From a virus, in the IMG/VR virus record IMGVR_UViG_3300033141_000720, positions 1 to 51,112 of that record: a stretch of 51,112 nucleotides of DNA, one strand, 5' to 3'. Both the position numbers and the translations under genes were made by a program. The notes beneath the pieces were generated by a model. It searched no databases. It worked only from the letters and a program-made list of their open reading frames with translations, and was not told where the DNA came from. How positions within the stretch are numbered: position 1 is the stretch's first letter; each line of letters opens with the position of its first letter. Shown in pieces: positions 36,024 through 51,112 of this stretch.

Positions 36024-37967
36024 ATGCCCGGTTCTCTAACTCCTTTAATAATGATGGCAGGCGAAGGGTTGATTGCAGACGCAGGTCTAGTAATTAATCC
36101 TAATCTGGATACTAGCTTATATACTAGCCAGCCAATCGTAGTTGATTTTAAGACAACAATCGCCGCATTTGAGGGTGATCTATTTGAACCAGCAGAAGAA
36201 GATCCGTTTAATCCAGGCGAGACACTCTTCGGCACCGGCAACCCAAGTGGTATATCTCCTAGTCTTGCCGAGCAATTTGTTCATTCAATGGATGATACAT
36301 TACCGTTCTTAACTAATGTGAATCCAGCAGCTACAAATGTTAGCACACGATATTATGATGCGTTTCTTGCTAACCACCTAACTAACATATTTCCATCTAG
36401 TGGACGATACGTACAGTATCTACAAATTGCAATGGGGCAAAAAGACACAGCAAACCAATATATAAATAGCGCAGTCAACGGTGCTAATTTATCCAAACAA
36501 ACCTTTACCACTATGGATGCATTGATGACTGGCAATCTTACAGCAGTTAGCAGAGATGTAAATACGTGGGGCTTGGACCTACTTAAGACAGGTAGTTTGT
36601 TTGACTTTGCAAAAATAGATAATATTGGCACACCACAATCATTAGTAGAAGCACTAATGAGAACAAACATGCTATCAACAATAGCAGACGAATTAGAAGC
36701 ACAGGGCGTTGATGTATTTGACATAAAGAAAGCAATTAACAACGAGCCTGATATAACATTGCAACCAACCGCACAGAAACGTTGTTATGATGCATTTACA
36801 CAAGTCACCGGAGAACAGTTAGAAGAAATTCTATTTGTCTTAGGAGTAGAAACAATTGGTATCACAGCATTGTCAGACTTATTAGATTTAACTAAAGTGT
36901 TTCCAAATAGTTTCTTTACAATTACATCACCAAACCACGGTACACCAGAAAACATTTATATTACCCCCGAGGGTGAAATTGCATTGTGGGTGCTGAAACT
37001 AAACACACCTGCAACAGTTTACATGCCTGGAGACTTAGCCAGAACAAACTATGTGTTTACGATTGCACTGGGCCAAATAAAAGGCATTATTAATTCAACG
37101 CCAGAAAATATTGGAACACAAGCATCTACTATCGAAGGGAATGATGGACTATCAGCAACAGGTAGTTTAGCAGAGGCACTACCAGCCGCGACAACAGCGT
37201 TCTTTAAAAGCTCAATGGGCGGTGGCACAGGTCCCGACACTACATTTTACCTAACCGACCTTGCAGGTTCGCCGGCGGGCATTCCTCATGTTAATAATAT
37301 TACAACCATGAATGATGTTATTGAACAGTTTCAAAATAACGGCGACCTAGATGATATAGCAGAGATATTTCTTGTTATGCGTAACGTTATAGCTGGTGTT
37401 TACACTGTGCAAGATGATCCTCCAATGGATCCACCAGAAGAATATGACGCAACGTTCTCTATTGTTATTCCTAATCCGTTGCCTGCTGAAGGAACGCATC
37501 GAAATAAAAATGCAGCATTGAGCGCACTGATGCGTGAATTAACAACAGCTAGTGAAGATTTAATAGCAGCATATCCAACAGAAACAGAAAATGCTACCGC
37601 AGCATTTACCGGTTCAGTTAATGGTATCATAATAGAACTAGAACAACTTTGGGATGCTGAATTAAAATTTCAAACCACGTATCTTCCAGAGTTTGAAACA
37701 AACGATCCGTTACAGAACGGTATGCCAAGAAACAAAAAGACCATCTTGGGCTTTGCAGAAAACTTACATTCACATGGAAAGAAAACAAGCAAAGGTGATA
37801 TTGTAGAAATATTAGAAGCAATGGCAACAGATACACAATCTGGCAATGCAATAATTGCGGCCATGCGCGAAGGCAGAAATTTATCAAAACTATCTGAAGC
37901 TGGAGTATCATCTGATAATCTTATTGACGATCAGAATTCAGTTATCGAACCAGGTAATATATCCTAA
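36024..37967 (+). CDS. Large virion structural protein next to PAAR (baseplate-type)
   Basis: 647 aa. It contains LDLTKVFPNSFFTITSP, which I recall from baseplate-associated proteins of cyanophages, and many turn-rich regions without enzyme motifs. Helical segment in the middle (LVEALMRTNMLSTIADELEA). An Ala-rich C-terminal part (AALSALMRELTTASEDLIAA-type). It directly follows PAAR, so a baseplate hub or tail-tip role is probable. The next gene begins 10 bases downstream with a good AAGGAG site. Confidence 0.72.
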   Translation: MPGSLTPLIMMAGEGLIADAGLVINPNLDTSLYTSQPIVVDFKTTIAAFEGDLFEPAEEDPFNPGETLFGTGNPSGISPSLAEQFVHSMDDTLPFLTNVNPAATNVSTRYYDAFLANHLTNIFPSSGRYVQYLQIAMGQKDTANQYINSAVNGANLSKQTFTTMDALMTGNLTAVSRDVNTWGLDLLKTGSLFDFAKIDNIGTPQSLVEALMRTNMLSTIADELEAQGVDVFDIKKAINNEPDITLQPTAQKRCYDAFTQVTGEQLEEILFVLGVETIGITALSDLLDLTKVFPNSFFTITSPNHGTPENIYITPEGEIALWVLKLNTPATVYMPGDLARTNYVFTIALGQIKGIINSTPENIGTQASTIEGNDGLSATGSLAEALPAATTAFFKSSMGGGTGPDTTFYLTDLAGSPAGIPHVNNITTMNDVIEQFQNNGDLDDIAEIFLVMRNVIAGVYTVQDDPPMDPPEEYDATFSIVIPNPLPAEGTHRNKNAALSALMRELTTASEDLIAAYPTETENATAAFTGSVNGIIIELEQLWDAELKFQTTYLPEFETNDPLQNGMPRNKKTILGFAENLHSHGKKTSKGDIVEILEAMATDTQSGNAIIAAMREGRNLSKLSEAGVSSDNLIDDQNSVIEPGNIS

Positions 37968-37977
37968 GGAGAAAACA

Positions 37978-38379
37978 ATGTTTAAGAAATACATGAAGAA
38001 ACTCTTGGCGGCCTATCATGTGGCAATCACAGGAGCAATAACAGCGTACCAATATGTCGTAGTTCGCCTGGCAAAAAACATGCCACTAACAAATGACGAG
38101 ATTTTTGACTACAGAGTAGACGTAGCATCGGGCAAATTAACTTACCTAAAGCCGGGTCTTTCAGAAGCTAACAAATTAATCCATTTACTTGGATTAAGTG
38201 TGGGATTCGACAAATCAGGCAAATTCTGGTGGGCAGAAGACGAAAATGGCGAGTATATGCGTGGTAAGAGTCTGGAAGAGGTTGTTCTTTTGATCGCAGT
38301 AGTATATAATAGTGAGCATATAAACAATTTCAAACCGGAGTATGAGCTAGATGCCACAGAATTGGATACACAAACTTAA
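37978..38379 (+). CDS. Small protein with hydrophobic N-terminus
   Basis: 133 aa. The start ATG has TAAGGAGAA 8 bases upstream. Residues 8-31 are a hydrophobic stretch (LLAAYHVAITGAITAYQYVV), perhaps a membrane anchor or amphipathic helix. The rest is charged and ends acidic. Function unknown. It overlaps the DNA ligase start by 29 bases. Confidence 0.6.
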   Translation: MFKKYMKKLLAAYHVAITGAITAYQYVVVRLAKNMPLTNDEIFDYRVDVASGKLTYLKPGLSEANKLIHLLGLSVGFDKSGKFWWAEDENGEYMRGKSLEEVVLLIAVVYNSEHINNFKPEYELDATELDTQT

Positions 38380-39727
38380 CGAATCAAACAGCAAATTACA
38401 CAAACTTGATGTAATTGAACAAGCACTCGAAGCCGCTAATATAGGTGCTGAGGATGCCAAGCAGTTTTTAACACTTGCCTGGTTTGCTTACAATCCCTTC
38501 GAAGTGTTCAACGTAAAAAAGATCCAACACACAAATGGTATAACAAGTGAAGATAATGATATTTCATTGTTTATCCAGATGTTGGGCGATTTAAAAAGTC
38601 GCAAAGTAACAGGTAATAAAGCCGCAGCATATATTGAAAGGGTGAGCATGAATTTCAATAGTGATTTATGGAACAGTTTACTTCGTCCAGTCATACTTAA
38701 AGACCTTCGCATTGGCGCAACAATAAAATCATTTAACAAAGTTCTCAAAGGAACGAAATACGAAATTCCAGTATTTGATTGTCAGCTTGCAGTTGACTCT
38801 AAGAAGCACCCAAAGAAACTTGTAGGTAAGAAAATACTTGAGCCTAAGTTAGATGGTGTTCGTGCTCTGGCAATAGTTGATAGATCATTTCCTGAACAAA
38901 CAAAAGTTACCATTTACAGCCGCAATGGCAAACCACTTAATAACTTTCCACACATTGAAGACCAACTCAGAGAATGTTTAAAAGTACATGAAGCATCCGC
39001 ACCGTGGAACGAAAACAGAATGGAACAATTTGTGTTTGATGGTGAAATTGTAAGTGAAAACTTTCAAGCACTAATGAAGCAAGCACAACGCAAAACAGAT
39101 ATTGACACTAGCGATTCCGTGTTTACTATTTTTGATGTTATTCCACTTGTTAATTTTAACAAGGGCAAATGGAGCATGCCACAAGAAAAACGTAGCAAGG
39201 ATTGGCTCGGTACCATTAAGGATCGTGTAAATACAAATTGTCCTAGCTTACATATAATCAGCGGGATCGACGTTGACCTTGACACAGCCGAGGGCCGCGA
39301 CATTATGCAACGCTTTGGCGAAGATCAAGTTGCAATGGGTTATGAAGGCATTATGATTAAAAGCGTTGATGCGCCTTATACATGCAAGCGCCGCACAGAT
39401 TGGATGAAATGGAAACCAACTATTACCGTAGATTTAAAAATTGTTGGATTTGAGCTTGGCAAGGAAGGTGGCAAGAACGAACATAGACTTGGCGCACTTG
39501 TATGTGAAGGCATTGATGGTGGCAAGTTCATCCAAGTTAATGCAGGCGGTGGGTACACTGATAAACAACGCGATGATTTCTGGGAACAACAAGATGACTT
39601 ACTGGGTCACATTGTAGAAATTGAAGCTGATTGTTTAACACTAAGTGAAAACTCAGACGATGTATATAGCTTACGTTTTCCGCGATTCAAACGCTTCCGA
39701 GGCTTCGAAGTTGATGAAAAGATTTGA
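38351..39727 (+). CDS. 30: ATP-dependent DNA ligase, gp30-like
   Basis: 458 aa (T4 gp30 is 487 aa). It seals nicks in dsDNA, chiefly Okazaki fragments. The adenylated Lys lies in EPKLDGVRAL (K166, motif I). Motif III is FVFDGEIV, motif IV YEGIMIKSVDAPY, and motif V TDWMKWKPT. A C-terminal OB fold with the GGYTDKQRDDFWE region follows. The N-terminal helical domain is T4-type. Its TGA overlaps the TTG start of the next gene. Confidence 0.93.
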   Translation: MPQNWIHKLNESNSKLHKLDVIEQALEAANIGAEDAKQFLTLAWFAYNPFEVFNVKKIQHTNGITSEDNDISLFIQMLGDLKSRKVTGNKAAAYIERVSMNFNSDLWNSLLRPVILKDLRIGATIKSFNKVLKGTKYEIPVFDCQLAVDSKKHPKKLVGKKILEPKLDGVRALAIVDRSFPEQTKVTIYSRNGKPLNNFPHIEDQLRECLKVHEASAPWNENRMEQFVFDGEIVSENFQALMKQAQRKTDIDTSDSVFTIFDVIPLVNFNKGKWSMPQEKRSKDWLGTIKDRVNTNCPSLHIISGIDVDLDTAEGRDIMQRFGEDQVAMGYEGIMIKSVDAPYTCKRRTDWMKWKPTITVDLKIVGFELGKEGGKNEHRLGALVCEGIDGGKFIQVNAGGGYTDKQRDDFWEQQDDLLGHIVEIEADCLTLSENSDDVYSLRFPRFKRFRGFEVDEKI

Positions 39728-40569
39728 TAGCTCATACTCTAATAGATTTTGATAGCGGGCAACACGGGCATTTTCTTGAATATGTAATTAGTACTTATAT
39801 TTTTAATCAACGCCCAGTCCCACTTAGTGAATTGTTTGATGCTGTTGGATCGTGTGACGGCTTTAATCTTGATATTGAATACAGGAAAAATAGATCGGTT
39901 CGTTGCGGTCATTTTTCATTTTATTATCACACAGGGGAACACCCCTACCCTAAGGTAGATCAAATAATTTATATTAAGCAACCCGACGATCTTGGACACG
40001 AGTTTATCTTAATGGTAAACGCATTTCACAAAGCGGGATTCGTTACAAATAATTTTCAAGATACTACACACGAACATATATCCAATGTACTCGAAGTAAC
40101 AGATTTAAGAACAGCGTGGGAAGATCGACTTGCTGTTAGTTTTAAAAGTCGCCAAGGGGGTACTAGTTGTTCCTTTCCGGGCGAAATTTATAATTTCGAT
40201 TATCGAACATTTTTTAGTTTACCTAAATTTATGATTGAACTTAGGAGAGTGGCAAAATTTCTAAATAGAAGTTTTCAATATGATGAATCATTGATTGTCC
40301 TCTGGGAAGATTTTATGGCACAGAATCAAGGATACACATTGTATAGTGTAGCTGATCGGTTATTAAATAAGATTGCTTTAGGTGAATCAGATGAGATACC
40401 AAATGAATGGAAAATACATGCATATCTAAATGTACAATTAGGAAGGATGTATAATGTTTACGAGTGTGATCTTTTAAACGACCCTGATTCTTATCCAACA
40501 GATACAAAAGAAGTACATGACATAATAATGAAATCCGTAAAGGAAGCGATTGCATCAACAGTTTACTAA
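39724..40569 (+). CDS. Glycine-loop protein, large form, TTG start
   Basis: 281 aa from a TTG that overlaps the ligase stop (TTGA). It opens HTLIDFDSGQHGHFLEYVIS, the same strand-loop-helix plan as the glycine-loop genes at 1969, 2526, 11574 and 28592. Later segments VDQIIYIKQPDD and FHKAGFVTNNF show alternating strands and helices. I recall similar cyanophage proteins of unknown function. A sulfotransferase-like fold is possible but not shown. Confidence 0.6.
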   Translation: MIAHTLIDFDSGQHGHFLEYVISTYIFNQRPVPLSELFDAVGSCDGFNLDIEYRKNRSVRCGHFSFYYHTGEHPYPKVDQIIYIKQPDDLGHEFILMVNAFHKAGFVTNNFQDTTHEHISNVLEVTDLRTAWEDRLAVSFKSRQGGTSCSFPGEIYNFDYRTFFSLPKFMIELRRVAKFLNRSFQYDESLIVLWEDFMAQNQGYTLYSVADRLLNKIALGESDEIPNEWKIHAYLNVQLGRMYNVYECDLLNDPDSYPTDTKEVHDIIMKSVKEAIASTVY

Positions 40570-40593
40570 TGCATAACCAAATTGGAGACATCC

Positions 40594-41292
40594 ATGTTAC
40601 ACCCAAAACAACAACTCATAAAAGATGCATACGGCAAAGTGCCAGAGACCTTAGCGGAAATTGCAGAGGCTTGTATTGCGGTAATTAACAGAACCGATCC
40701 GGTCGTTGGTTTTGCATGGGAACTAAAGTATTCACCTGAGGTCGGTAATTCACATTATGCACCAATTGCAGGCCACACAAATTGGGGAGGCAGAAACCCA
40801 GCAGCAAAAGGTGTGCGGAGTTATCCAGGCTTTTTTGGCCGCGTATGGATTCGATATGCTGATCATTGCAATGATTCATTTGGTGAATCGGGCAATTTTG
40901 CAAAAACGTTAACATGGCCTGGCAGCGGTGGCTATGGCGCGTATGACGGACTTTGGCAACCTATTGCACATGCAGCATACCAAACAGATGGCCATAATAG
41001 AGGTGAGAGTTATCCAGAACTTAGATTATTCAGTTGGGATTATCGCTTATTCCTAACAGACTTTCCAGGGTATGAAGAAGAATTTAACAGATTGCTAGAT
41101 GAGTTTAATCAGGAAGCTGAGTGGGATTTACTTAAAGGTCGTAATTTTAATTCATCCTTTGCAGTGTCTCACAGATTTAAGTGGGAAGATCCTACAGTTA
41201 AAGCAGCTGATGATGCATTTATTGAGTACTATAAACAAATGCAGGAGATGGACCCAAAGAACAATCCACGACACGAAACGGTAGAACCATAA
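40594..41292 (+). CDS. Hypothetical protein
   Basis: 232 aa. GGAG lies 7 bases before the ATG. Blocks HYAPIAGHTNWGGRNPAAK, PGFFGRVWIRYADH and GSGGYGAYDGLWQPI are distinctive but not linked to a known activity by eye. Soluble, no signal peptide. Its stop overlaps the late octamer CATAAATA. Confidence 0.62.
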   Translation: MLHPKQQLIKDAYGKVPETLAEIAEACIAVINRTDPVVGFAWELKYSPEVGNSHYAPIAGHTNWGGRNPAAKGVRSYPGFFGRVWIRYADHCNDSFGESGNFAKTLTWPGSGGYGAYDGLWQPIAHAAYQTDGHNRGESYPELRLFSWDYRLFLTDFPGYEEEFNRLLDEFNQEAEWDLLKGRNFNSSFAVSHRFKWEDPTVKAADDAFIEYYKQMQEMDPKNNPRHETVEP

Positions 41293-41295
41293 ATA
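41288..41295 (+). promoter_or_regulatory. T4-late-like octamer CATAAATA, leaderless geometry
   Basis: One mismatch to TATAAATA, includes the upstream stop TAA (41290-41292), and ends seven bases before the ATG at 41302, so the expected +1 is within one base of the start codon. Confidence 0.6.
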
Positions 41296-41301
41296 CACTA
41301 T

Positions 41302-43176
41302 ATGTTGAATAACAGACTTGGGTACATAGCCCTATTTTCAGCTCTATTTATTAGTAGCATTGCAATTTATTTTAGCGTAGCTGGTCTTGCTGCGATTTTC
41401 AGCGCGTATGCTATTTCAATTATAATAATGGGCACATCAATCGAGCTTGGTAAACTGGTAGCAGTTACCTGGTTACACTATAATTGGCGCGATCCCAATA
41501 TATTACTTAAAGGTGGCCTATCGTTTTTCGTAGTGGGTGTTATGTTTATCACGTCAATGGGTATCTTCGGATACCTATCAAAATCACATGTTGAACAAAC
41601 TGCTGAATCAGCAGAGAGCGTAGAACAAGTTAAACGTATAGATTCAGAGATAGGTAGACACAAATCCATTATCATCCGTTCCGAAGAAAAGATCGATGGT
41701 TACGAAAGCAATGGCTCCGGCGTAGATGCAAGTCTTAATGCACAAATAGATAAAGAACAAGGACGTATTGATTCTGCTTACGATCGTGTAAAGCCTGTTA
41801 TCCAAGTCCAATTACAAATTATAAAAGACGGACAGACTAATTCCGAAGGACGTTCTGCACCGTATAAGAAAGAACTTACAGAAATTAATCAGACATTGAC
41901 TGAGTTGCAAACCGCACTTAGCGATAAGAAAATTAGAGTAGCACAGGGAATAGTTGGCACAAGGCCAGATGGTTCGTACAGGGAAAAGACACAGGCTGCA
42001 ATTAAAGCCTTCCGCACACGTAAAGAAGCAAGGCGCGATGAGCTACTTAAAAAGATTGACGGCATACTAGGCAAGCCAACTTCAGCGCAAGTTGAAGCTC
42101 AAGCGGAGATTAAACGTATCCGCGCCTCAGTCCAAAGCGAGATTAACGAAAGTAATGCAACCATTAAACGCTTACGGTCACGTATGGGCCAGTCCAATGC
42201 TAATGACATTGAAACATTAATTACAGACGAACGTGCAAAGATTAAAGAATCAAATGCTCTACTTGATACGTTAACACAAGACAAGTTCACACGCGAAGCC
42301 AACGTTCGTAAGTTAGAAGCTGAAGTAGGACCTATTAAATATATCGCTGAGTTTGTTTACGATAGAGAAGCAGACGCAAACCTATTAGAGAAGGCTGTTA
42401 AGTGGCTTATTATATTAATCATATTTGTGTTTGACCCGTTTGCTGTATTCTTATTGATTGCAGCGCAACACTCATTTGATAGACACCGAGCCGACAACCC
42501 AGAACTCTTTAAAAAGGTACTCGGCAATCCGACGTCCGCCGAAGATGCAGTAACAAAAGAATATGTTGAACAACAATGGACAAGCAACGAGTCTGAAGTA
42601 CCGGATGACATTCCTGAGTTTACTAGTGACAATGGCGGGTATCAACCTACACATGGTGAGTTGGATGATAATGATCCACCTACCGAAGATGGCGACACAT
42701 TTGATTTTGAGAAAGTTAATGGGATACAAGAGCCGTGGAAGGATCTAAATGAGTTAGGCGAGATTGCAAAGGAGTTACATCTTCCAAACTATAATAGCAA
42801 AGGTAAGATTTCCTTAACTAAAACGAGCGAACATTACATTAATTTTAATGGAAAAGTCTATAGAGTTGAAGCATTGATTCAGGCATTTCCGGAACTCGGG
42901 TTTGATTTTGATAAAGAAGTTAAATCAGGAATAGTGTTTCCGCCACCTGCTAGAGTTGGTATGATGTTCTTGCGTACTGATGGTGAGCCAACGCAATTGT
43001 ATATTTTCAATGGCGCTAGTTGGGACAGGATTGATAAGAATATTTTAAATTTTAACGCTTATAGTCACGAGTACATTAAGACGTTAATTAAACGGGTCGG
43101 CAATAGCAATTATAATCCAGAGCTATTGAACGAAGCAGAGAAGAAGCACATCGAGGAACTGCTAGGTCGAGAATAA
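41302..43176 (+). CDS. Membrane protein with long coiled coil
   Basis: 624 aa. Three N-terminal membrane segments (about residues 7-27, 30-50 and 73-92), then a long charged coiled coil (about 100-350), then a fourth membrane segment (369-388, LIILIIFVFDPFAVFLLIAA) and an acidic C-terminal domain ending with FPPPARVGMMFLRTDGEPTQ and a short helix. The coiled coil between membrane parts could extend into the periplasm. A superinfection-exclusion, membrane-remodelling or lysis-linked role is possible. No ribosome site; a late octamer sits just upstream. Similar proteins exist in marine phages, I believe. Confidence 0.72.
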   Translation: MLNNRLGYIALFSALFISSIAIYFSVAGLAAIFSAYAISIIIMGTSIELGKLVAVTWLHYNWRDPNILLKGGLSFFVVGVMFITSMGIFGYLSKSHVEQTAESAESVEQVKRIDSEIGRHKSIIIRSEEKIDGYESNGSGVDASLNAQIDKEQGRIDSAYDRVKPVIQVQLQIIKDGQTNSEGRSAPYKKELTEINQTLTELQTALSDKKIRVAQGIVGTRPDGSYREKTQAAIKAFRTRKEARRDELLKKIDGILGKPTSAQVEAQAEIKRIRASVQSEINESNATIKRLRSRMGQSNANDIETLITDERAKIKESNALLDTLTQDKFTREANVRKLEAEVGPIKYIAEFVYDREADANLLEKAVKWLIILIIFVFDPFAVFLLIAAQHSFDRHRADNPELFKKVLGNPTSAEDAVTKEYVEQQWTSNESEVPDDIPEFTSDNGGYQPTHGELDDNDPPTEDGDTFDFEKVNGIQEPWKDLNELGEIAKELHLPNYNSKGKISLTKTSEHYINFNGKVYRVEALIQAFPELGFDFDKEVKSGIVFPPPARVGMMFLRTDGEPTQLYIFNGASWDRIDKNILNFNAYSHEYIKTLIKRVGNSNYNPELLNEAEKKHIEELLGRE

Positions 43177-43191
43177 GAAGAGGGTAGTACA

Positions 43192-44355
43192 ATGACTAAG
43201 TCATGTAACTTTTGTAATAAAACCCAACACGAGGTTAAGAAATTAGTATTAGGTGAAAAAGTAGGCATCTGTGATTCCTGCATTAATTTATGTCTAAAAA
43301 TACTCGATAACGAGCATTTCGAAGAAACAGACGAATTAGATAAACTTGATGATATTGATCCAATGGAATTAAAGGATTATCTTGACATGTATGTAACAAG
43401 TCAAGACGATGCGAAAACTGTATTAAGCGTAGCAGTTGCAAATCATGTCAAACGGTTGAATACACGCGATGTCACATTAGATAAGAGTAATGTAATGTTA
43501 TTAGGCCCAACAGGCTCTGGCAAGACACTACTTGCAAAAACGATAGCCGGATACTTAGAAGTACCGTTTGTAATAGCAGATGCAACTACCCTAACTGAGT
43601 CAGGTTATGTTGGTGAAGATGTTGAATCGGTACTAGTTAAGTTATTAAATGCAGCTGGCGGCGACATTGCTGAAGCTGAACGTGGCATCGTCTTTATAGA
43701 TGAAATCGACAAGATTGCTAAGACTCGTGGCACATTATCAGCTGGCAAAGAACCAGGTGGTGAAGGTGTACAGCAAGCACTATTAAAGCTAGTTGAAGGC
43801 ACAGTGTTTACAGTTGAGATTAGTAGGAAGTCAGAAACAACAGTTGAAATTGACACAAGTAACATTTTGTTTATTGCTAGTGGTGCATTTGTAGGACTAG
43901 ACAAGATTAAGAAAAGAAAGCAGCAACCATCACAAATTGGTTTTACTGCTGATGTTGACAATAGGTACATCAAAGACGCAGAAGCAACCGATCTTATTGA
44001 GTTTGGCTTAATACCTGAGTTTGTTAGTAGATTTCCTATTGTTGCAGAAGTTCAAGAGCTAACACAGGACGATATGCTTAATGTGTTAGCAGGTGTGGAA
44101 AATAATTTAGTATCACAGTACAAACACTTATTTAAATATAACGATGTACGGTTAACATTTGATAAGGAAGCATTGCGCCAAGTTGTAAATATTGCAATTG
44201 GCAAGAAGACCGGGGCACGTAGCCTACGTTCAATTATGGAGAAGGCTTTATTGCCGCACATGTTCAATATTAATAAGTATGCACATAATAATATAAATAA
44301 AGTACGAATTACAAAATCGCTAGTTAACAACCCAGTGGAGGTGAAGAAAAAATAA
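43192..44355 (+). CDS. clpX: ClpX unfoldase, phage-encoded
   Basis: 387 aa (E. coli ClpX 424). AAA+ unfoldase that feeds proteins to ClpP. Zinc-binding N-domain with C5-x2-C8 and C27-x2-C30. Walker A GPTGSGKT (105-112), GYVGE pore loop (138-142), Walker B VFIDEID (167-173, D170/E171) and FGLIPEFVSRFP. The ClpP-docking IGF loop is intact (I249-G-F251), so it should use host ClpP. The RKH loop, which helps choose substrates, reads R212-K-S214 and is shorter than in E. coli. AGAGGG gives the ribosome site. S21 begins directly at its stop. Confidence 0.95.
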   Translation: MTKSCNFCNKTQHEVKKLVLGEKVGICDSCINLCLKILDNEHFEETDELDKLDDIDPMELKDYLDMYVTSQDDAKTVLSVAVANHVKRLNTRDVTLDKSNVMLLGPTGSGKTLLAKTIAGYLEVPFVIADATTLTESGYVGEDVESVLVKLLNAAGGDIAEAERGIVFIDEIDKIAKTRGTLSAGKEPGGEGVQQALLKLVEGTVFTVEISRKSETTVEIDTSNILFIASGAFVGLDKIKKRKQQPSQIGFTADVDNRYIKDAEATDLIEFGLIPEFVSRFPIVAEVQELTQDDMLNVLAGVENNLVSQYKHLFKYNDVRLTFDKEALRQVVNIAIGKKTGARSLRSIMEKALLPHMFNINKYAHNNINKVRITKSLVNNPVEVKKK

Positions 44356-44568
44356 ATGCCAAGCGTACGAGTATATGAGGGACAGTTTGATAAAGCCCTT
44401 AGAAAATTTAAAAAGAAAGTATCCAACGCAGGAGTTCTAGAAGAAGTTAGGAGACGTCAAACATATGAAAAGCCATGCACAGTTCGCCAACGTAAGAAAG
44501 CGGCAGCAAAGGCACGTCACCGTAAGAAACTTCGTCTTGAACTGCCAGTCCCACCACGTAGACGGTAA
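44356..44568 (+). CDS. rpsU: Ribosomal protein S21 (bS21), phage-encoded
   Basis: 70 aa, aligning end to end with bS21: [19 protein letters not shown], then [16 protein letters not shown] and a basic tail ([17 protein letters not shown]). bS21 sits near the mRNA channel and helps initiation. Phage S21 can replace the host protein in ribosomes and favour phage mRNA (established for marine phage S21 in general). It has no gap from clpX, so the two are coupled. The stop lies in a GGTAATATTACC palindrome. Confidence 0.93.
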
Positions 44569-44615
44569 TATTACCAAATAACTTGCAATAAATCTCCAGT
44601 CATAGTATTATATAA

Positions 44616-44623
44616 GCTAAATA
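44616..44623 (+). promoter_or_regulatory. Late-like octamer GCTAAATA in the hsp20 leader
   Basis: Two mismatches to TATAAATA. The 122-base gap 44569-44690 also holds the inverted repeat TATAAGA/TCTTATA (44628-44634, 44651-44657) and a strong AAGGAG site before the ATG at 44691. Confidence 0.4.
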
Positions 44624-44690
44624 AATGTATAAGATGCTGCATAAGGCGGGTCTTATATTTTGATCTTGCTTTAGATAAGGAGAACATATC

Positions 44691-45137
44691 ATGCAAAACA
44701 AACACCTCACCACTATAAATCTGGAACCATTCTTGCGTAACGCAATTGGTATGGATCGTATTTTTGAAAATATGATGCACAGAGTAGAACATTCAAACAG
44801 CGGAAATTATCCTCCGTATAACATTATTGAAGTAGACGATGATCATTATCGTCTTGAAGTTGCAGTAGCAGGTTTCAACAAGGACGAAATTATTGTAACA
44901 GTTGACAACGGACAGTTGTTAATTGCCAGCCATATCGTTGATGTTGACGAAGCTAAGGAAATAGATAGCGAAACTTACCTTCATAAAGGTATTAGCGCAA
45001 GACACTTTCAGCGTCAGTTTACATTATCTGATCACGTTGAAGTCATTGGTGCAGAAGTAGTTAACGGCGTACTTAAAGTTGAACTGGAACGTAACATTCC
45101 AGAAAGTTTAAAGCCGAAGACAATTGAAGTTAAATAA
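44691..45137 (+). CDS. hsp20: Small heat-shock protein Hsp20 (IbpA-like)
   Basis: 148 aa. An alpha-crystallin domain: NIIEVDDDHYRLEVAVAGFN, then VTVDNGQLLIAS and HLHKGISARHFQRQFTLSD-type segments, with VVNGVLKVELERNIP at the end. The C-terminal TIEVK serves as the IxI-like tail motif. Holds unfolded proteins; phage versions occur in cyanophages. TAAGGAG lies 7 bases upstream. It sits between S21 and clpS. Confidence 0.93.
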   Translation: MQNKHLTTINLEPFLRNAIGMDRIFENMMHRVEHSNSGNYPPYNIIEVDDDHYRLEVAVAGFNKDEIIVTVDNGQLLIASHIVDVDEAKEIDSETYLHKGISARHFQRQFTLSDHVEVIGAEVVNGVLKVELERNIPESLKPKTIEVK

Positions 45138-45150
45138 ATTTAGCCAATAA

Positions 45151-45182
45151 TATTGTACACGGTTATCAGACCGTGTACAATA
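45151..45182 (+). terminator. Perfect hairpin between hsp20 and clpS, no U-tract
   Basis: A perfect 12-bp stem (45151-45162 with 45171-45182) and 8-nt loop. It is not followed by a T-run but by the late-like octamer GCTAAATA. It may stop or process the hsp20 message, or protect its 3' end. Confidence 0.6.
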
Positions 45183-45190
45183 GCTAAATA
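45183..45190 (+). promoter_or_regulatory. Late-like octamer GCTAAATA before clpS
   Basis: Two mismatches to TATAAATA; same octamer as at 44616. It follows a hairpin and lies 20 bases before the clpS ATG at 45211. Confidence 0.4.
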
Positions 45191-45210
45191 ATTACATGAA
45201 GGATAATAAA

Positions 45211-45513
45211 ATGACTAACACACAAGTCGCAATTAAAACTAACTTAGACCTTAAAGAGCCACCAATGTTTAAGGTTATCTATGTTAACGATAACAAGACC
45301 AGTATGAAGTTTGTAATAGATAGTCTTGTTGAACACTTCAGCTATGTGGAAGACACCGCCGAAAGAATAGCAAACACTATTCACACTGACGGCGCGGCGG
45401 TGGCAGCAGTCTTGCCATTTGAAGTAGCAGAGCAGAAAGGTATCGAAGTAACAGTAGATGCACGTAAGCAAGGCTACCCACTCCAAATACGAATTGAAAA
45501 AGAAAAAGATTAA
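45211..45513 (+). CDS. clpS: ClpS adaptor (N-degron adaptor), phage-encoded
   Basis: 100 aa. The pattern [20 protein letters not shown] aligns with E. coli ClpS [28 protein letters not shown]...FEVAEQKG follows. Pocket residues for N-terminal hydrophobic residues are kept: Asn-Asp, Thr and Met of NDxxTxM, and the His of IHTDG. ClpS normally delivers N-end rule substrates to ClpA or ClpC, which is not in this window. The ATG at 45211 with GAAGGA at 45198-45203 is preferred over the ATG at 45196. Its stop shares the TTAA with the minus-strand gene. Confidence 0.93.
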   Translation: [100 protein letters not shown]

Positions 45514-46280
45514 GGTTTAATTATTTTCGGATAGTAGATACTTAGGTCTTTACTCTGCCCTGAGTTATTTACAAAGCGAACACCATCAACTGTATAATCA
45601 ACGTCTCCAGGATATTTTCCAAAGAGCCAGGTTGTTATTTTCTTTTTGGTGTCGTTCTCTAGACAAGCGACAATGCCTTTGTTTCCGGCCATGTCGCCAA
45701 GTATTGTACCATCGTAATCATCATCGTGTACTATAAACTCCGACTTGGGTACTGAGTTTGATATAACAATAACATTCGTAACATCTTCCATATCCTGACA
45801 GGCTTCAACACTGTTAAGCATATAGTGTTGATCCGTCACGGCAAGTTTAAGAATTTTATCGGATATATCTAGTGGAACACTTCCACGATCGTCCATAAAG
45901 TCTAGTATCTCTTCCACAGGTCGATTACTTGTAAAATCAAATGTTGTCCAACCGTTTGTCGCTAATAATGTTACATTAGGTAGGATAACAATATTCTCAT
46001 GTAGAAAAAATACCTTTTCCATCTCAAAAAGATTCTCTCTTATTGAAGCATAACTCTTATCAAAATCTCCATTGTAATGGTAATGCTCGAGATCGCCATC
46101 TATAAAAAATACAGCTTCGTAGTACTGAGATATATTCTCTAAGAATTCAAATAACACATCATGATCGGAAGAAATATTTCCTGCTACTATACAGAAGAGG
46201 CTGGTCGCCTTTCCTTCCCATGAGAACTTATCTATTGAATGTAGATATAGGTCGCTTATTAAGTCAAAATTTATTGTCAT
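45510..46280 (-). CDS. Degenerate metallophosphoesterase-like protein
   Basis: 256 aa on the minus strand. The fold signs of calcineurin-like phosphoesterases are visible but the metal ligands are mostly replaced: DLISDLYLH keeps D10 but has Y12 where His is expected; VAGNIS has Asn for the GD Asp; FIDGDLEHY replaces GNHE; VISNSV lacks His; WLFGKYPGD replaces GHxH. It is probably inactive, acting as a binding protein. It forms a tail-to-tail pair with clpS (TTAA shared by both stops) and is divergent from the next gene. Other readings are possible, since homology rests on pattern only. Confidence 0.65.
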   Translation of the reverse strand: MTINFDLISDLYLHSIDKFSWEGKATSLFCIVAGNISSDHDVLFEFLENISQYYEAVFFIDGDLEHYHYNGDFDKSYASIRENLFEMEKVFFLHENIVILPNVTLLATNGWTTFDFTSNRPVEEILDFMDDRGSVPLDISDKILKLAVTDQHYMLNSVEACQDMEDVTNVIVISNSVPKSEFIVHDDDYDGTILGDMAGNKGIVACLENDTKKKITTWLFGKYPGDVDYTVDGVRFVNNSGQSKDLSIYYPKIIKP

Positions 46281-46303
46281 TGTAAAATTCTTATAATTAT
46301 AGT
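46274..46303. promoter_or_regulatory. Divergent promoter region
   Basis: The 35-base gap between the minus-strand gene and the gene at 46316 holds TATAAT on the plus strand (46292-46297) and TATAAT on the minus strand (46296-46301). The minus element would give an 8-base leader. -35 matches are weak, so strength cannot be judged. Confidence 0.4.
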
Positions 46304-46315
46304 ATAGGAGACAGT

Positions 46316-46693
46316 ATGTACATAGTTTATGAAACCAACAATGAAATTGATTCTCTCCGTTCTAAATATTTAGTTCTGGAATTGGATACCGTAGAGTTTT
46401 CTAATGGAAAAACAGTAAGAACGTTCGCGGTGGTAGATAACGACCATATAGTCTTTCAAGAAATACCAATGCTTGAAAATTTAACTGACTTACACGAAAA
46501 TCTTATTAAGAACTATCGTTTAAAGAACTGGGATTACTGTACACAAGCTATGGACCATTTAATGGGTAGTTTCAAGGGCGAACTAGATACGTTTTATGAA
46601 GAATTATCAAAACGTATCAAGGTCCTTGAAGATATACCACTAGCAGATGATTGGACAGGTAACATTCTAACTGAACAAACAGAATCATTCTGA
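46316..46693 (+). CDS. Hypothetical protein
   Basis: 125 aa, acidic, unknown. TAGGAG precedes the ATG. It opens MYIVYETNNEIDSLRSKYLV and has a helical part (NYRLKNWDYCTQAMDHLMGS). Its TGA ends in the late octamer AATAAATA. Confidence 0.62.
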   Translation: MYIVYETNNEIDSLRSKYLVLELDTVEFSNGKTVRTFAVVDNDHIVFQEIPMLENLTDLHENLIKNYRLKNWDYCTQAMDHLMGSFKGELDTFYEELSKRIKVLEDIPLADDWTGNILTEQTESF

Positions 46694-46700
46694 ATAAATA
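46693..46700 (+). promoter_or_regulatory. T4-late-like octamer AATAAATA
   Basis: One mismatch to TATAAATA. It overlaps the last base of the upstream stop codon and lies 24 bases before the ATG at 46725, with AAGGAT as ribosome site. Confidence 0.55.
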
Positions 46701-46724
46701 TAAAGAACAACTAAGGATTATAAT

Positions 46725-47333
46725 ATGCGAGTAAGCGAAATATTACGAAATTTGGCAGATCTAGTGGACCAGACTGAAGATGCGGCAGTTCAAGATGCTA
46801 CTGGGCAAATGCCTGTACAAGCTGAACAACCGTGCGATCAACCAGGCGAACAGGGTGCTGAAGTTACAGTAACACATTTGGAGCCAGTGGAAGTAAGCAG
46901 CGATGATGGTTCAGAACCTGCAACAATGATATCACCATTGCAACAAGAACACGAGTTACTTAAAAAGTCACAAGGTGTTGATAACAATGTTGCTGAATTT
47001 GCCGGCGATGACGGCGACGAGCAAATGGTGCCAACAGAATTAAACTCAGAAGAAGAACAGCCATGGGCAAGCACTGAAAAAGATGGATCACCTCTTCAGA
47101 GGGAACCAGAAGATAATGGCCAGTGGGCAAGCTCAGAAAGAGACAGCACACCAACAAGCGACAACGAAGACGAAGTTGATGAAGGCAATGATTTATCACG
47201 TATGCGTAAAATGGCAGGCATTGGCGAAAAACAAGGGCCACATAATTATGCAGAAGATTCTAAGCCAGCGTCTGTTAACCCAAAAAGGAATGCTGCATTA
47301 GCTTTTCACAAATCAACAAATAGATCCGAATAA
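46725..47333 (+). CDS. Acidic low-complexity protein, virion-associated
   Basis: 202 aa. The N-terminus MRVSEILRNLADLVDQTED is helical. The rest is acidic and Gln/Glu/Ser-rich, with a conserved-looking block MISPLQQEHELLKKSQGVDN and two similar segments (QPWASTEKDGSPLQREPED and QWASSERDSTPTSD). A short helix (LSRMRKMAGIGEKQ) ends it. Similar proteins with the LQxKLELLKKxAGVDN block occur in cyanophages, as I recall. Late promoter upstream suggests a virion or head-internal protein. Confidence 0.65.
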   Translation: MRVSEILRNLADLVDQTEDAAVQDATGQMPVQAEQPCDQPGEQGAEVTVTHLEPVEVSSDDGSEPATMISPLQQEHELLKKSQGVDNNVAEFAGDDGDEQMVPTELNSEEEQPWASTEKDGSPLQREPEDNGQWASSERDSTPTSDNEDEVDEGNDLSRMRKMAGIGEKQGPHNYAEDSKPASVNPKRNAALAFHKSTNRSE

Positions 47334-47346
47334 GGAACGTTAGTCG

Positions 47347-48585
47347 ATGACGATTAGAAAAATCAAAGGATCGTTAGTTAAGGTCGAGATAGATGATTAT
47401 CTATGCGAAAGCTCGTATCTTTTCTATGACATTATTACAGGTTGCATTAGAATAGCCGATGGTACGCCTGGTGGCATGCCAGCGTGTATTGAAGGACTTA
47501 CATCTACCTCATCATTTAGCACAATTGCAGTAAGTGGACAGAGTGATGTTGTTGCCACGTCGGCCATCGACACGCTAACTTTAGTTGCCGGTGCAAATAT
47601 AACAATTACAACAAATGCAGGCACAGATGAAATTACTATTGCTTCATCCGGTGGTGGTGCTGGTGACCCAGATCAAAACCTGTGGGAAACGATCAGTTCC
47701 GATTCAGGTTCCACAGTTGCTAACTCACTAACAGATACACTAACAGTTACTGGTGGTACTGGAATTAATACAGCCATCGTAGGCGATGTGCTTACCATTT
47801 CAGCAACAGGCGGAGTAGGGTCCGACGAACTTAGTAAAATATCTGTAAATGATACAACAGCTGGTTTCCTAAATGGTAAATTAGTATCCGGTACCGGCAT
47901 AACATTAACAGAAAATAATGATGGCGCCAACGAAACATTAACTATTGCATATGATAGCGCAGCATCAGATCAGAATCTATTCTCAACTATTGCAGTTGCA
48001 ACGCAGAGCAATATCGTAGCTGACACAGCAGCAGACACATTAACTTTAGTAGCCGGCACAAATGTAACAATCACAACAAACGCCGGCACTGATGAAATTA
48101 CAATTAACGCAACAGGCGGCGCTGGCGGAGATCCAGATCAAAACTTATGGGAAACAGTCAGCGGCGATTCGGGTTCAGCAGTAGCTAACACCATAACAGA
48201 TACATTAACTATTGCTGGTGGTGCCGGTATAACTACAGCAGTATCGGGCGATACATTAACTATTACCAATGATGATGCCCAGATATATAATACTTACACA
48301 AACATCACAACAGTAACAACAGTAGATTCAGTAGTTGCTGAAATGGGTAAATGGATTATTAGGGTAATCGAAACAGCAACGCCTACAAATGTGTTAACGG
48401 AAGAAATTTTAGCTACGCATGATGGAACAAACCCAAAATTTACAGAGTACGCAATTTTAAAAATGGGTAGCAACATTACAGGATTAAGCATTGATGTTAC
48501 TTTAACCGGTGGCAACACATTAAACGTAACAGTCACATCAACGCCTGGCGTTGATGTACAAATTAAACAAGTGGCGGTATTTTAA
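47347..48585 (+). CDS. Repeat-built tail fibre-type protein
   Basis: 412 aa. A short N-terminal domain (KIKGSLVKVEIDDYLCESSY) is followed by two long copies of a beta-solenoid-like unit containing TLTLVAGANITITTNAGTDE and DPDQNLWETISSDSGS (copies at about 47515-47811 and 47980-48270) with a shorter module between. The C-terminal domain (KWIIRVIETATPTNVLTEEI) looks globular. The Ala/Thr/Gly-rich repeats are typical of fibre shafts. AAGGAA precedes the ATG. Confidence 0.8.
   Translation: MTIRKIKGSLVKVEIDDYLCESSYLFYDIITGCIRIADGTPGGMPACIEGLTSTSSFSTIAVSGQSDVVATSAIDTLTLVAGANITITTNAGTDEITIASSGGGAGDPDQNLWETISSDSGSTVANSLTDTLTVTGGTGINTAIVGDVLTISATGGVGSDELSKISVNDTTAGFLNGKLVSGTGITLTENNDGANETLTIAYDSAASDQNLFSTIAVATQSNIVADTAADTLTLVAGTNVTITTNAGTDEITINATGGAGGDPDQNLWETVSGDSGSAVANTITDTLTIAGGAGITTAVSGDTLTITNDDAQIYNTYTNITTVTTVDSVVAEMGKWIIRVIETATPTNVLTEEILATHDGTNPKFTEYAILKMGSNITGLSIDVTLTGGNTLNVTVTSTPGVDVQIKQVAVF
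47515..48270 (+). repeat. Duplicated unit of about 290 bp in the fibre gene
   Basis: Copy A (47515-47811) and copy B (47980-48270) share protein blocks STIAV, DTLTLVAG, NAGTDEIT, DPDQNLWET, DTLT(V/I) and are 465 bases apart. Confidence 0.85.
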
Positions 48586-48601
48586 ATGAAGGAGAAACAC
48601 A

Positions 48602-51112
48602 TTGGCAGCTAATTTTCCAATCAGCAGTTTAACATTAGACGACTTAGTTGATATCGCACAAACTTCTGTTGACCCGTCGAGTGCAGGATATACAGCACCA
48701 ATTGGTTCAGTTCTATTACGAACCACAGGCCAACTTTGGATTAAGGTTGGAGCAACAGATACAGACTGGGACCTAATTAAATCAGGCACGCAAATTGGTG
48801 TAGACCAAATGGCATCAACTGGTTTATTAGACGGCGGCGAACTAAGCATTAATGTAGACCCTACTAAATTTGATGTAGCAGCAGGCATTGGCCTTATTGT
48901 TGACAACTACACAGACACACTAAACCCTACAGCGGCCTTAGTAACATGGGGGGCTTCCGCAGCGGTTGTAGTAACAAACCTTGCAATAACAACACGTTCA
49001 TTTATTGCAATCAATTCTGTAGGCAGTATTGTACAGTCAGGCGCATCATGGACGAACACCGAACACAAAGATAACATCGTGCTTGGTAACCTAGGACACG
49101 CTAATCTTACTAGTATTGTTGGTTTGCGTAATAACCCAGACCCGGCAATTGATGCCACAGCACGTTTAGCTGACCTAGCAAGAGCTATTGGTTCGTTGAA
49201 TATTGAAGGTAACATTTTCGGACCAAACGGTAATAACATATTACTTAATAAGAGCTCAGGTACTACATATAGACTTGGTAATAACTTTGCAAACAATAAG
49301 AGAGACACAGATTCAAATACTGACGCGTCAGGAACGATTGTACCATTTATTTACAGCTACCAAAATGGTGGTGGTGGTCACACATTAGTAACACCACCAG
49401 CTACGTCTGTTGACTCAAGCAACTATGATGATGGAACCGGTACACTTTCATCAATGCCAAATGGACGCTGGCAGATACAAATTATTAAATACTTCTCAGG
49501 AATTTCCGGCGCAGCAACAACACGTATTGAATACGGACAACAAACATTCTCAACTAAAGCCGCCGCATTAGACGTATTGCCAGATGCACAGCACGTTCAT
49601 AACGCAGCGTTCGCAGAAGGCGTTATTAGAGCATACTTACTAGTATCTGCAGGCGCAACAGATTTAAGTGATCCAGCACAGGCTGAATTCATTGAAGCAG
49701 CCAAGTTTGGACAAGGTGGTGGCGGCCAGTTCTCTGGATCAGTAACTACTTTGCAACAAGCATACGATAACAGTGTTAATCCAGAAATATTAACAGACGC
49801 AACTCGCGGTGCTGTTACTATTACAGAAGGTGCCGCAGTTGGCGGTAACTTAATCGAGGGTATTGACGATGGCGCAACTACTGTATTCGCAGTTGCGGTG
49901 GATGGCAGCTTAACAGCAACACCAATTAATAATTTAAATGATGTTAATGCAACACCAATAGCTAACGATGTTTTAACATGGAGCGGCACAGAATGGCAGG
50001 CAGCAGCGCCTCCAGGAGCAGGTGGCGGCGAAGCTAATACAGCATCTAATGTTGGCGTGGGAGGCACAGGTTTATATCTTCAGAAGGTCGGTGTAGGATT
50101 ACAATTTAAGAATATCAATGCAGGTAGTAACTTAATTAGTATTACTGATGATGTTGCAAACTCTGAGGTTGATATTGATGTTAATCAGGCCAACATTGTA
50201 ATTACTGAAAGTCAAATTAGTGACTTGCAGGCGTACTCATTAACTGACACAACAGATCACACATTGTTTAGCAATATCGGTACCAACTCTCATGCAGCTA
50301 TAGATGCTCATATCGTAGATGGTACTATACATTATACGCAGGCATCAATTAGTATTACTGAAAGTCAAATTAGTGACCTTGGTAGTTATTCATTAACAAC
50401 TCACGTACACGAAGGTACAGAAATCGATGCAAGCGCAATTACAGATGGTTTTGTATTAACAGCTGATGGGTTAGGCAATTCAGTATGGGAAGCACCAGGC
50501 GCTGGCGTATCTGCAATTGGTGATTTATCAGACGTTATAATAACAACGCCAAGTAACGGTGAAGTATTAACATACGCAGGCGGCGACTGGGTTAACCAAC
50601 CAGCAGGAGCAGGCTCAGACGTATTAGTCAAAGTGTCTGCAAACGATACAACAAGTGGTTACTTAAATGGTAAGTTAGTAGCTGGCACAGGCGTGTCACT
50701 AGTAGAGAATAACGATGCTGGAAACGAAACATTATCTGTTAATGCTGATGGATTAGTACTTAATAACTTAACAGATGTTAACACAACCGCACCAGCCTCT
50801 GGTGATGTTGTATATTACGATGGCGGCGCAGGTGAATGGCAGAATACACAGTTGTTTACGCCAGGTACAGAACAATCAATTCAACAAGTTTCTGGCACAG
50901 TTCCGGCTTTGTCAGGTACAACGATTATCGTACAGACAACAACAGCACCACTAATTACAGAAGGCACTGAACTTTGGTCACAGGTGTTTACGCCAAGCCA
51001 AACAGGCGGATCATTGAAAATATCACAGTCATTTGCATTCTTAGTTACAAACGCATCATCAGCAATTATTGTGGCATTGTTTAGAGATAACGTATGTATC
51101 GGCGTTATGAAT
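48602..51112 (+). CDS. Large tail fibre-type protein, 3' partial, TTG start
   Basis: At least 837 codons, open to the window end. It starts with a TTG seven bases after AAGGAG (48589-48594); the first residues are MAANFPISSLTLDDLVDIAQ. A fibre-type N-domain with GSVLLRTTGQLWIKVG follows. The middle carries a series of tail modules: ITESQISDL (two copies, 50201-50224 and 50354-50377 identical over 24 bases), three (N/S)LxDVN-type repeats ending in a Trp (about 49928, 50519 and 50761), and a cassette NDTTSGYLNGKLVAGTG shared with the gene at 47347. The end, TPSQTGGSLKISQSFAFLV, looks like a trimerisation head. It is a receptor-binding candidate. Confidence 0.82.
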   Translation, partial: MAANFPISSLTLDDLVDIAQTSVDPSSAGYTAPIGSVLLRTTGQLWIKVGATDTDWDLIKSGTQIGVDQMASTGLLDGGELSINVDPTKFDVAAGIGLIVDNYTDTLNPTAALVTWGASAAVVVTNLAITTRSFIAINSVGSIVQSGASWTNTEHKDNIVLGNLGHANLTSIVGLRNNPDPAIDATARLADLARAIGSLNIEGNIFGPNGNNILLNKSSGTTYRLGNNFANNKRDTDSNTDASGTIVPFIYSYQNGGGGHTLVTPPATSVDSSNYDDGTGTLSSMPNGRWQIQIIKYFSGISGAATTRIEYGQQTFSTKAAALDVLPDAQHVHNAAFAEGVIRAYLLVSAGATDLSDPAQAEFIEAAKFGQGGGGQFSGSVTTLQQAYDNSVNPEILTDATRGAVTITEGAAVGGNLIEGIDDGATTVFAVAVDGSLTATPINNLNDVNATPIANDVLTWSGTEWQAAAPPGAGGGEANTASNVGVGGTGLYLQKVGVGLQFKNINAGSNLISITDDVANSEVDIDVNQANIVITESQISDLQAYSLTDTTDHTLFSNIGTNSHAAIDAHIVDGTIHYTQASISITESQISDLGSYSLTTHVHEGTEIDASAITDGFVLTADGLGNSVWEAPGAGVSAIGDLSDVIITTPSNGEVLTYAGGDWVNQPAGAGSDVLVKVSANDTTSGYLNGKLVAGTGVSLVENNDAGNETLSVNADGLVLNNLTDVNTTAPASGDVVYYDGGAGEWQNTQLFTPGTEQSIQQVSGTVPALSGTTIIVQTTTAPLITEGTELWSQVFTPSQTGGSLKISQSFAFLVTNASSAIIVALFRDNVCIGVMN
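50201..50377 (+). repeat. Identical 24-bp repeats encoding ITESQISD in the terminal fibre gene
   Basis: attactgaaagtcaaattag plus tgac occurs at 50201-50224 and 50354-50377, 153 bases apart. Confidence 0.9.

Follow-up and report, generated by a model that had tools for sequence, protein, structure and literature searches.

Clade-restricted divergence of the pore-2 and RKH loops in the ClpX of a huge phage with further Clp genes

Most knowledge of phage Clp proteins comes from annotation. The stretch of DNA analysed here (the window, i.e., the 51,112-base virus record IMGVR_UViG_3300033141_000720, in whose positions coordinates are given) raises the question of their targets in a specific form: it encodes a ClpX in which the ClpP-docking tripeptide is kept and loops at the pore entrance are changed. 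Which ClpP would such an enzyme serve, and would it still take ssrA-tagged proteins?

The window carries genes for, among others, a single-strand binding protein, UvsX, a primase, a DnaB-like helicase, a ribonucleotide reductase, an ATP-dependent ligase, and a baseplate-type protein, a gene content that indicates T4-like replication in a tailed phage; tRNA genes were not found in the window. A related ClpX is encoded on contigs as long as 344 and 293 kb, which marks the window as part of a huge phage. A 78,393-base record (G001) overlaps the window by ~14.7 kb: one of its ends matches positions 36397-51112 at 100% identity, a single 36-bp intergenic indel excepted, and the record runs on past the window's right end. 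The 36-bp stretch (44573-44608, between the bS21 and hsp20 genes) is present in the window, missing from the otherwise identical G001/L002, and, judged by spacing, also present in L003. Host assignment via the matches of the DNA ligase, the baseplate protein, and Hsp20 was abandoned, as the signals were mixed (Bacillus-type phages, pelagiphages, and cyanophages). A defence-system identity was likewise rejected, the match being generic AAA similarity only.

A genuine ClpX with altered loops at the pore entrance

The open reading frame at 43192-44355 encodes a genuine ClpX. Its product passes both NCBIfam equivalog cut-offs (NF003745, 461.9 bits against 359; TIGR00382, 432.6 bits against 370.75), and its Pfam domains, namely PF06689 (zf-C4_ClpX), PF07724 (AAA_2), and PF10431, amount to a C4 zinc-binding N domain and one AAA+ module. 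The four zinc-domain cysteines are invariant in a 30-row alignment, and the best structural matches of the AlphaFold model (mean pLDDT 83) are ClpX structures. In the related L005 (L005:6001-7095), 22 small-domain residues of ClpX are missing in frame, by either a true deletion or an assembly error.

IGF loops serve in the broad docking of ClpX onto ClpP (ClpXP). The IGF reported in an earlier note on this DNA at residues 249-251 was found intact, and the docking that it expected is probably retained. The surrounding residues 240-255 are identical to those of two relatives at 16/16 (L007) and 15/16 (L004) positions. The tripeptide of L004, a close large relative, reads IGY; since the xGY form is frequent in bacterial ClpX (30 of 80 sequences), this is no sign of lost docking.

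In E. coli ClpX, the ssrA tag is held by Y153 and V154 (pore-1), T199 and V202 (pore-2), and R228 and H230 (RKH loop), and mutation of each of these six residues has a strong effect (Fei 2020, PMC7652416). Km rises greatly with T199A/V, V202A, or H230A; with R228A, the increase is at least 50-fold, and specificity turns away from ssrA and towards an N-degron substrate (PMC7652416). In human ClpX, Leu stands in place of both T199 and H230, and ssrA substrates are not degraded (PMC7652416).

Alignment of the window ClpX to that of E. coli shows that the pore-1 pair is kept and that three of the six residues (T199, V202, and H230) are replaced, with RKH itself gone and the loop bearing R228 and H230 shortened. 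Counted from the EGT glycine up to the DT in the strand that follows, the RKH segment has 20 residues vs 24 in E. coli, with RKS at residues 212-214 as its tip, which agrees with the earlier note; the matching pore-2 change (T199G, V202P) adds to what it described. In the AlphaFold model, the RKH segment folds into a hairpin whose strands span 205-209 and 217-221; pLDDT is <50 in the pore-2 and IGF loops, and their geometry is a low-confidence prediction. The window protein thus does not have the E. coli-type ssrA features (RKH loop plus pore-2 T199/V202), which leaves its membership of the ClpX family unaffected. Because key tag-holding residues and loop length are lost, ssrA-tagged proteins are probably recognised poorly.

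Distribution and tempo of the loop change

The window ClpX belongs to a clade of seven members (the window, L004, L005, L006, L007, L008, and L087), in which the RKH segment is 4-7 residues short. Its tips read RKS, RRE, RRE, KKS, KSM, KHE, and GNE, i.e., six different forms, with the proviso that the aligner may place the gap on the tripeptide itself. Conservation of RKS among phage copies, for which the earlier note had proposed an alignment, was therefore not borne out, and RKS was rejected as a conserved phage motif, its full window-like context occurring, within this family, only in contigs with an identical ClpX. The 20-residue length is shared by five of the seven members, and the GEG end of pore-2 is kept in most.

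Across 146 unique related phage ClpX sequences, 134 have a segment of 24-25 residues and 109 have RKH. Replacement of V202 by Pro was found in 3/121 phage sequences, all from the window clade, and in 0/80 bacterial ones. The 80 nearest bacterial ClpX keep T199 (78), V202 (80), and H230 (75), nearly all with a 24-25 residue segment; in a second bacterial set (n=32, mostly drawn from Pseudomonadota genomes, with a few repeats of the first), all have the full loop with RKH or RKN. Neither RKS nor a loop four residues short occurs in either set (0/80 and 0/32). The earlier note had named RKS-like loops in ClpX of the host lineage as what would speak against its reading; these counts, which come from the bacteria sampled, go the other way, though indirectly.

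In a ClpX tree made by a quick method with the loop columns left out (SH-aLRT support, no bootstrap), the window clade (SH-aLRT 99) is nested in a phage ClpX clade (SH-aLRT 99), the rest of which has loops of 22-25 residues, mostly RKH. RKH loops flank the window clade on the tree, and by parsimony their loss is derived; the loop change is derived and clade-restricted. Independent pairs for a joint loss of RKH and T199 are few across the tree.

Some other sequences on the tree also depart from the common form. A separate phage group (L033, L092, L235, L244, L249, L260, and L268) has RKT/RRT-type loops and, in most cases, Ser in place of T199; this is a milder and separate drift of both loops. 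Two of the five bacterial H230 exceptions, which show other departures too, stand beside phage sequences: L122, from a 'Deltaproteobacteria' MAG, is without RKH and T199, and L160, from a 'Clostridiales' MAG contig, pairs with the gut phage ClpX L280 (SH-aLRT 100). Both are possibly phage contigs in bacterial bins.

Both loops of the window clade diverge far faster than the remaining enzyme, i.e., the acceleration is loop-specific. Where the rest of the protein is ~90% identical, identity in the loops falls to 43% for the window clade (one pair) vs a mean of 96% and a minimum of 79% in other phages; at 80%, it is 37% (two pairs) vs 89%, and at 60-70%, 26% (nine pairs) vs 66%, the window-clade pairs being few and non-independent. 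Together with the near-identical docking region, this indicates that the ClpP-facing side has been held and the substrate-facing loops have not. The ratio pN/pS is 0.41-0.71 in the loops and 0.12-0.22 elsewhere in ClpX, and whole-gene dN/dS is 0.07-0.15 where computable, with synonymous sites near saturation. Given pN/pS below 1 and pS near saturation, relaxed constraint fits these values equally well as selection for new substrates.

Clp partners on the window and the continuing contig

The clpX gene is the first of a same-strand cassette, clpX-S21-hsp20-clpS (Table 1). A bS21 gene lies directly 3' of clpX in most related loci as well, and among the 108 unique related loci with sufficient downstream sequence, Hsp20 and ClpS follow clpX in 107, and bS21 as well in 88. 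This gene order, as S21-Hsp20-ClpS or as Hsp20-ClpS alone, recurs in L095-L101, where no ClpX was found in the stretch examined. In the window ClpS, the equivalents of the ligand-pocket residues D35/T38/H66 and the ClpA-facing residues E79/A81/K84 are kept in the alignment, M62 is A throughout the clade, and the score lies below the NCBIfam ClpS equivalog cut-offs.

Table 1. Features of the clpX locus and of the contig that continues it
Feature	Position	Strand	Evidence or remark
clpX, AAA+ unfoldase, 387 aa, ATG start	43192..44355	+	NCBIfam, Pfam, AlphaFold model
N-terminal C4 zinc domain (C5, C8, C27, C30)	43204..43293	+	PF06689, 44.8 bits
Walker A GPTGSGKT, residues 105-112	43504..43527	+	sequence
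Pore-1 loop GYVG, residues 138-141	43603..43614	+	Y153/V154 equivalents kept
Pore-2 loop, residues 176-192, AKTRGTLSAGKEPGGEG	43717..43767	+	E. coli T199 replaced by G, V202 by P
RKH-loop segment, residues 203-222, GTVFTVEISRKSETTVEIDT	43798..43857	+	tip RKS; four residues short
IGF ClpP-docking tripeptide, residues 249-251	43936..43944	+	sequence/alignment
bS21 homologue, 70 aa	44356..44568	+	PF01165, 61.4 bits; immediately after clpX
Hsp20 small heat-shock protein, 148 aa	44691..45137	+	PF00011, 64.3 bits; phrog_432
clpS adaptor, 105 aa	45196..45513	+	PF02617, 72.4 bits (cut-off 23)
ClpP, S14 family	G001:46303-46839 (67987-68523 on extended window coordinates)		PF00574, 238 bits
ClpA-like gene	91862-94177 on extended window coordinates (G001)		~48 kb beyond clpX

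Outside the window, ~24 kb beyond clpX, G001 encodes a ClpP in which Ser, His, and Asp align with the catalytic triad of E. coli ClpP and which scores under the TIGR00493 cut-off and over that of NF001368. Its ClpA-like protein has a Clp_N match (30.8 bits), two AAA modules, and an IGF loop; the best NCBIfam model is ClpA, at 769.5 and below the cut-off of 993. A ClpP is likewise encoded in 14/15 large related records. The earlier note had suggested that the phage enzyme may use host ClpP; as the continuing contig encodes a ClpA-like protein and a ClpP that has the triad, this is probably wrong.

A second, divergent ClpP-like protein with aligned Ser, His, and Asp lies 2-4 kb from the main clpP in four records outside the window clade (L211, L212, L213, and L214; records G009, G012, G010, and G011, respectively); both large window-clade records yielded none. 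In five huge-phage records (L198-L202), the ClpA-like gene adjoins a DnaJ-like gene. A phage tmRNA was searched for in 13 records (including those of 344, 343, and 293 kb, the contigs possibly being incomplete) and gave no match over the Rfam cut-off, a search of limited sensitivity in which 9/14 control genomes reached the cut-off; a search for a phage SspB adaptor found none.

Possible roles of the phage ClpX and relation to known systems

The explanation moderately favoured here is that the phage owns a set of Clp protease components and that recognition of ssrA by its ClpX has been weakened or lost. The phage Clp system would comprise ClpX, bS21, Hsp20, and ClpS from one cassette plus the distant ClpP and ClpA-like protein. 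The IGF loop would dock ClpX on ClpP, most likely the phage's own, and the intact ATPase core would unfold and pull the substrate. At the pore entrance, the pore-2 and RKH loops, their key residues and length gone, would fit the C-terminal ssrA tag poorly, and different degrons or adaptors would probably steer ClpX towards other substrates; N-degron substrates could go to the phage ClpS-ClpA pair (ClpAPS). The partnership with ClpP, the lost recognition of ssrA, and the kind of substrate now taken are what we infer from sequence. The earlier suggestion of different substrates, perhaps not ssrA-tagged ones, thus stands in part: with three of six residues replaced and a short loop, weakened ssrA recognition is plausible, and the substrate range would follow by conjecture. 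A stronger version, considered rather doubtful, holds that the Clp system is self-contained and that ClpX has been freed from tmRNA quality control, its loops diversifying under selection for phage- or host-specific targets; if so, each phage lineage would turn its own ClpXP on a different protein set.

The chief rival is that the loops are relaxed and have drifted without gaining a new specificity, substrates being delivered via adaptors or the N domain, or ClpX acting mainly as a remodelling chaperone. The six tips among seven members, a pN/pS that is below 1 and raised in the loops only, and a zinc (adaptor) domain that diverges too (31/45 residues identical to L004) would all be expected from such drift. 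Against this stand the 20-residue length common to five members, the GEG end kept in most, and the strong constraint on the rest of ClpX, so that drift is seen as possible and not as the likelier course. Redirection of the host protease to new proteins, by a phage ClpX docked on host ClpP, is unlikely: the near clade strongly conserves the IGF region and IGF loops dock broadly onto ClpP, but a triad-bearing ClpP is encoded by the same phage, and a ClpP by nearly all large related records. Host and phage ClpP may also both be used. Co-adaptation to a host with a different ssrA tag, recognition being kept through other contacts, appears improbable. The host's tag may be of such a kind; however, the loops differ between close relatives (ClpX 84% identical), which a conserved tag end would not need, and RKH/RKN loops are kept in the bacterial ClpX sampled.

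Compared with bacterial ClpX (E. coli, TIGR00382/NF003745), the window protein has in common the zinc domain, Walker motifs, GYVG, IGF, sensor-2 GAR, and overall fold, and differs in the segment four residues short, the RKS tip, and G and P in place of T199 and V202. Human mitochondrial CLPX is likewise without the T199 and H230 residues (PMC7652416), but it has Leu at those positions and belongs to an organellar lineage, so that the shared trait is at most convergent. The ClpX of Salicola phage SCTP-2 and Pseudomonas phage Callisto also have neither RKH nor T199; they form long, unsure branches elsewhere in the tree and are probably separate losses.

Jumbo-phage Clp sets are already known by annotation. 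Agrobacterium phage Atu_ph07 encodes ClpX, ClpA, ClpB, ClpP, and ClpS (PMC6102473); like the window phage it is of jumbo size, and it possesses an almost complete Clp network together with DnaJ. Its ClpX, unlike that of the window, keeps a 24-residue RKN loop and V202, and its clpX adjoins IF-3, with no clpX-S21-hsp20-clpS cassette. A jumbo-phage survey listed ClpP, ClpS, ClpA, and ClpX in some groups (PMC7824862), and in bS21-encoding huge phages, Hsp20 and Clp proteases are among the common bS21 neighbours (PMC9723584), although the main text of the latter paper does not name ClpX, ClpS, or ClpP and does not treat the loops. In the open-licence literature, no description was found of the change in both loops, of its confinement to one clade, or of its tempo, nor any paper on phage-encoded ClpX as a topic. 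Naturally altered recognition loops on a conserved ClpX core, together with a phage ClpP, would allow a direct test of how specificity depends on the pore loops, and of whether host proteins are subject to targeted proteolysis by phages.
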